A DNA stretch of 39,847 bases from Candidatus Parcubacteria bacterium (GTDB lineage: Bacteria; Patescibacteriota; Minisyncoccia; JAHIHE01; JAGLIN01): NCBI GenBank assembly GCA_023132875.1, contig JAGLXN010000040.1, positions 1-39,847 of the forward strand, in the 5' to 3' direction. Made by a program: the position numbers and the translations under genes. This document shows positions 32,280-33,904 of the stretch, in pieces (position 1 is the first letter of the stretch; every line of letters starts with the position of its first letter). The notes below the pieces were generated by a model. The model was not told the origin of the DNA, searched no databases, and saw only the letters and a list, made by a program, of their open reading frames with translations.

Positions 32280-33257
32280 TTACAAAACCAATCCAACTTT
32301 TTCCTTCACCTCTCTCATAGTTTCCCGCGCGATAATTCTTGCTTTTTCAGCTCCTTCATTCAAAATCTTTTTTACTTCTTCCGGATTTTTTTCAAGTTCC
32401 TTTCGCTTTTTTCTAAAAGGCGCGAAATAATTTCCAATATCTTCAGCAAGCGCGTCTTTTAATTCGGAGAATTTTATATCTTTACTTCTAAACTTTTTAT
32501 CAAAATATTTTTTATTTCTTTCTGATCCAAACTTCTCCAATAAAGTTATGTAAAAACTGTAAATATCTTTATTATACTCAGTGGTTGAAATTGCCTTTCT
32601 TATTTTTTTCTCAATAACTTCCGGCTCGTTATTAATTCCAATATAAGATTTCGGTCCGTGGGATTTACTCATCTTTTTTGTCGGATCAGTTAGCGACATA
32701 ATTTTTGGAGTTTCGGTTACAATATCTTTCGGTTCTGGAAATATTTTTCCAAATTTATTATTGAAAAATCGTGCGATTTTTCTGGTAAGTTCAATATGCT
32801 GAAGCTGATCCTGTCCTACGGGAACGCCATAAGCTTTATACATTAAGATATCGGCAGCCTGAAGAACGGGATAGTCAAACAGACCCATATTAATATTCTT
32901 TTCTTGATCTTGAGATTTATCTTTAAACTGCGTCATTCTTTGCAGTTCTGAAATTGGAGTAACAGTATTTAAAATCCATGCCAGTTCTGTATGTTCGGGA
33001 ATTTGTGATTGGACTGCGATCACGCATTTTTTAGGATCTAGTCCGGCTGCCAAAAAATCCAAAGCCAAATCAAAAATTTGTTTCGGTTTTTCTTTCAAAT
33101 TATAATTTTCCGTAATTGAATGATAATCGGCAATAAAGAAAAAACATTCGTATTTGTCTTGAAGCTCCACGAAATTTTTTAACGCCCCAAGATAGTTGCC
33201 GATATGCAATTCTCCCGAAGGCTGAATCGCGCTGAAGATCGTTTGTTTTTTAATCAT
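32280..33257 (-). CDS. trpS: Tryptophanyl-tRNA synthetase
   Basis: This class I aminoacyl-tRNA synthetase charges tRNA-Trp. The 325-aa protein has the HIGH-type motif in PSGELHIGNYLGALKNF (~14-30), the tryptophan-pocket region DYPVLQAADILMYKAYGVPV with GQDQLQHIELTR, and the KMSKS loop TKKMSKSHGPKSYIG. It ends in a helical C-terminal domain with NEGAEKARIIARETM. Length and motifs are normal for bacterial TrpS. It is a single minus-strand gene; the stop abuts a repeat pair, and no Shine-Dalgarno precedes the start. Confidence 0.97.
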   Translation of the reverse strand: MIKKQTIFSAIQPSGELHIGNYLGALKNFVELQDKYECFFFIADYHSITENYNLKEKPKQIFDLALDFLAAGLDPKKCVIAVQSQIPEHTELAWILNTVTPISELQRMTQFKDKSQDQEKNINMGLFDYPVLQAADILMYKAYGVPVGQDQLQHIELTRKIARFFNNKFGKIFPEPKDIVTETPKIMSLTDPTKKMSKSHGPKSYIGINNEPEVIEKKIRKAISTTEYNKDIYSFYITLLEKFGSERNKKYFDKKFRSKDIKFSELKDALAEDIGNYFAPFRKKRKELEKNPEEVKKILNEGAEKARIIARETMREVKEKVGLVL

Positions 33258-33346
33258 AGTTTTATTATTATTTATAATCTAATTATAGCTTTATATAAAA
33301 AATATATCAATTTAAAATAGAGAAGGGGATTTTGCTTTTTAATCCC

Positions 33347-33703
33347 CTAAACTTCGGTTAACTTAAAATAATCATCATTTTTGCCAGACATGTCTATATG
33401 TTTTGTTTTTTTATACTTCTTTTTGCATTTTTTACACATATAATATATTCCTTCAGACATCACTCCATCTTTGTGTGTTTCAAGTTTTGAACCGCATCTA
33501 TAATTTGGACAAAAAACATCTTGTCTGGAGCTAAATTTCAGTAGAAAATATTTTTCAGTTTTCCTTTCGATTAATATTTTTTCAAGTTTATTTTCGCATT
33601 TTGGACATGTATAGAATTTGTGTCTATCTATTACGATTTCTAAATCGCAATAGGGGCAGAAGCATTGACTATTTTCAAGGGACATTACTAAAGATTGTGT
33701 CAT
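33347..33703 (-). CDS. Double zinc-ribbon protein under an attenuator-like leader
   Basis: This 118-aa protein has two zinc-binding modules. The first is CPYC (~16-19) with YTCPKCENKL (~32-40). The second is FCPNYRCGSKL (~64-73) with YYMCKKCKKKYKK (~88-100). Between them is a basic segment with IERKTEKYFLLKF. The second module resembles topoisomerase- or TFIIS-type ribbons, so nucleic-acid or protein binding is likely; no enzyme domain is present. The ATG start has AGGAGG nearby (AGGAGGAGAG, spacing about 6-9). The gene has a perfect consensus promoter and a leader of about 165 nt with an intrinsic terminator 34 nt before the start. I do not recognise a named family. Confidence 0.7.
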   Translation of the reverse strand: MTQSLVMSLENSQCFCPYCDLEIVIDRHKFYTCPKCENKLEKILIERKTEKYFLLKFSSRQDVFCPNYRCGSKLETHKDGVMSEGIYYMCKKCKKKYKKTKHIDMSGKNDDYFKLTEV

Positions 33704-33736
33704 TATTTCTCTCCTCCTAAGGGCTCGTCCCTAACT

Positions 33737-33821
33737 AAAAAACAGCTCTTAGGCTGTTTTGAATTTGCTCAATTATTCTAAAATATAAGAAAACACCAAA
33801 ACAGTCTAAATGCTATTTTGG
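33737..33821 (-). promoter_or_regulatory. Candidate attenuator/riboswitch leader with three alternative hairpins
   Basis: On the RNA strand, CCAAAATAG (33821-33813) can pair with CTGTTTTGG (33804-33796; one G-U). CTGTTTTG (33804-33797) can instead pair with CAAAACAG (33761-33754). AAAACAGC (33760-33753) can pair with GCTGTTTT (33746-33739), which is followed by TTTTTT, forming a terminator. Each choice excludes the next. No known riboswitch consensus is recognised. Confidence 0.6.
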
Positions 33822-33875
33822 CTCCACCAACTTGAAACTAGGTTAAATTTCATTTTTATTTCATTCATAAATTTA

Positions 33876-33904
33876 ATTATACAAGAGTATTTTTTATTTG
33901 TCAA
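33876..33904 (-). promoter_or_regulatory. Perfect consensus promoter of the zinc-ribbon gene
   Basis: Minus-strand TTGACA (33904-33899), a 17-bp spacer and TATAAT (33881-33876). Both hexamers are exact. The predicted start is near 33869, giving a leader of about 165 nt. Confidence 0.8.

Follow-up and report, generated by a model that had tools for sequence, protein, structure and literature searches.

A probable trpL-type attenuator before a zinc-ribbon gene and trpS in Patescibacteria, with T-boxes at the same locus in related genomes

Introduction

Classical attenuators are predicted before aminoacyl-tRNA synthetase genes, as in the case of pheST of gamma-proteobacteria. The trpL attenuator, described from Proteobacteria, Corynebacterium and Streptomyces (PMC1262725), combines a short leader ORF carrying Trp codons in tandem, the alternative pairings 1:2, 2:3 and 3:4 and an intrinsic terminator. 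Classical attenuators were also predicted before trpS2 of S. avermitilis and leuS of Streptomyces (PMC1262725). In Sinorhizobium meliloti, the leader ORF of trpL is leaderless and the attenuator controls trpE(G) (PMC7298713). The T-box (RF00230) likewise senses tRNA charging, but binds the tRNA directly. In Bacillus subtilis, expression of the small zinc protein anti-TRAP (rtpA) is tied to uncharged tRNA(Trp).

The DNA analysed here, termed the window, comprises 39,847 nucleotides of a Candidatus Parcubacteria bacterium (contig JAGLXN010000040.1, assembly GCA_023132875.1). A 165-nt leader upstream of a gene for a zinc-ribbon protein was identified, with a probability of about 0.9, as a classical ribosome-mediated transcription attenuator of the trpL type. 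It shares the described architecture of trpL, but belongs to Patescibacteria, is A-U rich and has no Rfam match, and its predicted target is a zinc-ribbon gene, possibly together with trpS. As in the trpS2, leuS and pheST elements, its codons are cognate to the downstream synthetase. In contrast to these, a small zinc-ribbon gene separates the attenuator from trpS, which has a promoter of its own; two comparison genomes (G005 and G001) carry tandem copies, and sister genomes have a T-box alternative. The mechanism is that of the textbook trp attenuator, whereas the clade in which it occurs, its zinc-ribbon target, its occurrence as tandem copies and the T-box exchange appear to be new. No report of ribosome-mediated amino-acid attenuation in Patescibacteria or of a tRNA(Trp)-sensor exchange was found in the part of the literature covered. 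The finding extends amino-acid attenuation by the translating ribosome to Patescibacteria.

Results and Discussion

Leader ORF, promoter and pairing segments

The leader and its promoter comprised the following features, all on the minus strand.

33876..33904, minus strand: promoter TTGACA-17-TATAAT, 12/12 consensus match
33806..33868, minus strand: leader peptide ORF MNEIKMKFNLVSSWWSQNSI, ATG to TAG, from the sequence and homologous leaders in relatives
33824..33829, minus strand: TGG TGG, two adjacent Trp codons at which the ribosome is predicted to stall, based on an in-frame Trp codon in 10/10 leaders
33821-33812, minus strand: segment 1 CCAAAATAGC, partner of segment 2, from sequence and folding
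33804-33796, minus strand: segment 2 CTGTTTTGG, partner of segment 1 or, as antiterminator, of segment 3, from sequence, folding and comparison
33761-33753, minus strand: segment 3 CAAAACAGC, partner of segment 2 or, as terminator, of segment 4, from sequence, folding and comparison
33746-33737, minus strand: segment 4 GCTGTTTTTT and U-tract, 3' arm of the terminator, from sequence and folding
33718-33711, minus strand: strong Shine-Dalgarno sequence AGGAGGAG of the zinc-ribbon gene, from the sequence

A preliminary description of the region had placed a perfect consensus promoter at 33876-33904; the sigma-70 motif and all coordinates were confirmed. It had overlooked the ORF with Trp codons inside the leader. 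Directly 3' of the -10 box, ATGAATGAAATAAAAATGAAATTTAACCTAGTTTCAAGTTGGTGGAGCCAAAATAGCATTTAG translates as a peptide of 20 residues with two tandem Trp codons. The regulatory codons adjoin segment 1 with a gap of 2 nt, and the stop codon TAG adjoins segment 2 with a gap of 1 nt. The -10 box ends 7 nt upstream of the leader ATG, a spacing that was identical in the comparison genomes G016 and G011. Transcription is predicted to begin no more than one or two bases from the ATG and, because of this spacing, the leader ORF is probably leaderless. The Sinorhizobium meliloti trpL transcript has the same start at the leader ATG (PMC7298713), whereas the start in the window is a prediction and its attenuator does not control trpE(G). 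In other genera of the order, the 5' UTR of the leader was about 15-25 nt long.

The three mutually exclusive pairings claimed earlier all folded, with predicted energies of -10.7 (1:2), -13.3 (2:3) and -8.2 kcal/mol (3:4). The last corresponds to an intrinsic terminator with U-tract, which is short and A-U rich in the window and to that extent speaks against a trpL-type element. A terminator with both upstream alternatives arose in 57 of 20,000 dinucleotide shuffles of the 165-nt leader (about 0.003). The nested design was thus only suggestive from the single sequence, and comparison with relatives was needed.

Leaders in related genomes

The nearest named relatives were MAGs of Candidatus Moraniibacteriota and Paceibacterota, and on that basis the order is called Moranbacterales here. 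G000 denotes the genome of the window and the other G numbers denote comparison genomes. Apart from the genome of the window, seven Moranbacterales genomes had leaders with Trp codons, located upstream of small genes for zinc ribbons and of trpS. A covariance model built from five leaders (R1) detected the element in 7 of 383 genomes of the class, all of them Moranbacterales and each time before small zinc-ribbon ORFs and trpS. An eighth match, in G185, was rejected as a spurious palindrome lacking both a zinc-ribbon ORF and trpS. Among about 40 named trpS loci outside Moranbacterales, no Trp-codon leader of the full layout was found.

Leader peptides in the other genomes included MNGIEMKFNLVSSWWNQNSI, MSEIKIKFNLVSSWWNQDSV and MRKNIATQKLNHWHNQINI; the leader MSRKNITSIVILNLPTGQAGLSKNWWSQNSI was longer, with an altered 5' part and the frame kept. 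G016, G011 and G002 held close copies of the window leader, the ORF of G002 having a longer and altered 5' part yet remaining in frame to WWSQNSI. The leader of G004 showed HWH. G014 was divergent, with WHW and a different terminator. In G005 and in G001, one attenuator was followed by another, with a small zinc ORF behind each of them; these tandem pairs read MKTINNSKMYFWKWQTPSGCFVVFL with MTSIRQSNINHSWWHLN and MKITNSTNMYFKKWQTMSGCFAIFL with MLRESQNDTCHTWRLN. Among 1,016 short ORFs taken as controls, 24% contained an in-frame Trp codon and 2.5% contained WW or WxW, whereas the leaders did so in 10/10 and 7/10 cases; these counts rest on about five independent groups, since G000, G016, G011 and G002 are closely related, and are partly post hoc. 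In the nine alignable leaders, the Trp codons were located 15-27 nt upstream of segment 2 (G000 read by eye).

Covariation was counted by a script on hand-anchored segments instead of R-scape. Of the 108 cells of the 2:3 helix in the nine alignable attenuators, 99 were paired, and 3 of its 12 positions showed changes on both sides. In the 3:4 helix, two positions had changed in this way, with G-C replacing A-U in G005b and U-A replacing A-U in G001b, and several one-sided changes were also present. Segment 3 of G005b has G instead of A at two adjacent positions. A change in segment 2 matches one of them and a change in segment 4 the other, with G-U pairs holding the remaining contacts, which is the pattern that a shared segment requires. 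On the conservation and compensatory changes in the eight attenuators besides that of the window, the pairing design is real. The three alternative stems and the terminator of the preliminary description were thereby borne out, as was the covariation it had proposed to test, and its reading of the leader as an attenuator of the downstream gene is supported. Codons and stems were kept across the nine alignable sequences, which represent about five independent groups. Several points argue against a uniform trpL-type layout: the Trp codon was single in three leaders, the 2:3 stem of G000 has one A-C mismatch, and the ORFs of G005a and G001a run through segment 2 to a stop codon beyond it, so that the stop-codon step must differ there.

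The signal

The same pairings could in principle serve a riboswitch binding a metal or a metabolite. Alternative structures with a terminator and a zinc ribbon as the regulated protein would fit such an element, and the preliminary description had hinted at sensing of a metal or of an RNA or translation state. In a search with the Rfam 15 covariance models, no family came near its threshold, and what the leader did match was attributable to chance and consisted mostly of microRNA models from eukaryotes. The part linking segment 2 to segment 3 was variable in length and sequence and mostly extended the antiterminator helix. Since a ligand riboswitch also leaves the Trp codons, trpS and the T-box for Trp in sister genomes unexplained, it is extremely unlikely.

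A translated leader could alternatively respond to another cue by acting as an arrest peptide or by sensing another amino acid or the general translation rate. The single Trp codon in three leaders, one of them with His flanks (HWH), and the weak look-alikes with Arg or His codons in other classes would agree with this. Yet Trp was the one residue that every leader shared, the surrounding peptide varied between groups, unlike arrest peptides, and both trpS and the T-box with a TGG specifier indicate Trp. A cue other than Trp is therefore very unlikely. The leader is neither a metal riboswitch nor a member of a new class. It had been said to match no known class, which was mistaken: a pair of Trp codons placed as in classical attenuators, with trpS downstream, characterises a trpL-type attenuator and points to charged tRNA(Trp) instead of a metal or the general state of translation.

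T-boxes at the rnj-trpS interval

A T-box took the place of the attenuator in the interval after rnj in G006, G007, G008, G010, G012 and G013. In total, a T-box with TGG specifier was located ahead of trpS in seven related genomes. The Rfam E values ranged from 1e-9 to 4e-7 per genome, all below the curated cut-off of RF00230. All T-box genomes compared shared the specifier region (C/T)TGGGTCTAG with TGG and the antiterminator AAGGTGG(N)ACCACG. In the Rfam search, no T-box was detected in the window or in its own genome (E 0.01), and the window locus had no specifier stem with a AGGGTGGNACCGCG-type antiterminator.

Gene order behind the T-box varied. Small zinc-ribbon genes followed in G006, G012 (partly broken) and G013, trpD, a BtpA-family gene and trpS in G007, and an amidotransferase-type gene, trpB, trpA and trpS in G010. 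In G008, a FAD-type gene followed and trpS was situated at the edge of another contig. G004 possessed both sensors, in the order T-box, zinc ribbon, attenuator, zinc ribbon, transposase-like gene and trpS. In a poorly resolved TrpS tree, the sensor types were clustered and two changes suffice, so that one replacement via a G004-like state would be enough. From the comparison of these intervals, T-box and attenuator, unrelated devices that both read the charging of tRNA(Trp), are exchanged at one locus, which argues strongly for tryptophan, or tRNA(Trp) charging, as the signal of the attenuator. Such a swap, with one genome holding both sensors, offers a clean natural case of the evolution of RNA control.

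Within Moranbacterales, T-boxes with a TGG specifier that precede trpS or trp genes were found at L018, L019, L020, L031, L034, L088 and L112. TrpS had 360-384 aa in the T-box-bearing G004, G006, G007, G012 and G013 (L034, L019, L031, L035 and L036) and about 325 aa in most other genomes. The difference corresponds to an insert near residue 230.

Proposed mechanism

From this arrangement, leader translation, ribosome stalling and switching can be inferred for the trpL-type attenuator. RNA polymerase would start at or beside the leader ATG and a ribosome would translate the 20-residue peptide. With ample charged tRNA(Trp), the ribosome would reach the stop codon and mask segment 2. Segments 3 and 4 could then pair and transcription would end at about 33737. 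If charged tRNA(Trp) were scarce, the ribosome would stall at UGG UGG and cover segment 1. Pairing of segments 2 and 3 would block the terminator, the zinc-ribbon gene would be transcribed, and read-through would perhaps carry transcription on into trpS.

Genes behind the attenuator

The region downstream comprised four features.

33347..33703, minus strand: protein of 118 aa with two zinc ribbons, encoded by the gene next to the attenuator, from translation, profile and motif comparison
33324..33348, minus strand: GGGGATT..AATCCCC hairpin where the zinc-ribbon gene ends, weak in its U-tract and perhaps a weak terminator
33282..33310, minus strand: further promoter, TTGATA-17-TATAAT, located before trpS and also kept in relatives
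32280..33257, minus strand: trpS, tryptophan--tRNA ligase, TIGR00233 with 304.6 bits, above cut-off

Paired Cys motifs mark two zinc ribbons in the 118-aa protein, of which shorter homologues keep the second only. The protein has no Trp residue, no confident family was found for it and its structure model was weak (pLDDT 68, pTM 0.47). The attenuator is surely directed at this gene. The next gene, trpS, may gain from read-through but is a less certain target because of its own promoter and the hairpin between the genes. Control might thus be confined to the zinc-ribbon gene, with trpS independent and the synteny without shared control. This would narrow the trpL-type explanation, not replace it, and is a realistic possibility at somewhat less than even odds. 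It accords with the promoter TTGATA-17-TATAAT, kept before trpS in eight genomes, and with the hairpin, which follows the zinc-ribbon gene in several genomes. Against it, the U-tract of the hairpin is weak, the hairpin was not evident in every genome and trpS directly ends a T-box-led trp operon in G007 and G010.

No convincing trpA was found in the genome of the window, a further difference from trpL systems, and from its gene content this genome may be unable to make tryptophan. Like anti-TRAP, the zinc-ribbon protein is small and its predicted expression is tied to uncharged tRNA(Trp), but it had no match to the Anti-TRAP model; the only match, below threshold, came from one small ORF of G005 (L013:713-889). 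Regulation by TRAP and anti-TRAP was rejected, as PF02081 was absent from 18 genomes of the order while the B. subtilis control was positive. A broader proposal, conceivable although rather unlikely, is that the T-box and the attenuator swap or stack before small, mostly Trp-free zinc-ribbon genes and that the proteins encoded there are true effectors of Trp starvation, similar to anti-TRAP without TRAP, in apparent non-makers of Trp. The predicted link between expression of the zinc-ribbon family and tryptophan supply makes the role of this family testable.

Further leaders

A second covariance model (R2) gave two weak matches in 379 genomes of the phylum, G613 and G679, which had a three-segment appearance and leaders without Trp. 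A pattern search for further elements of this kind returned none. Attenuators of similar shape in other classes of Patescibacteria, weak matches only, were listed at L121:202-272 and L122:1501-1594; their leaders MENNSLQSNRRDAR and MTQMVINSNQNLRHHRVQAFLGCFLGF contained Arg or His codons and no Trp. By eye, no leader peptide was evident before nine other aminoacyl-tRNA synthetase genes in the genome of the window. A T-box-like leader was seen by eye before thrS in the same genome and was missed by the Rfam model. T-box-like leaders before thrS and, in G006, before a probable glycyl-tRNA synthetase gene were listed at L093 (reverse complement, about 187-470), L115, L116, L117 and L118. Small zinc ORFs of the CxxCxGxG type with weak likeness to the DnaJ central domain were situated near the same loci in G005 (L013:232-462) and G010 (L088:1503-1667). 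Upstream of a 114-aa gene in G010, the region L088:1734-1880 comprises a terminator and an ORF resembling a leader, MQNYNLQQQTIASMGMMMELLP, in which several Met codons form a run; this is possibly a Met-codon attenuator.
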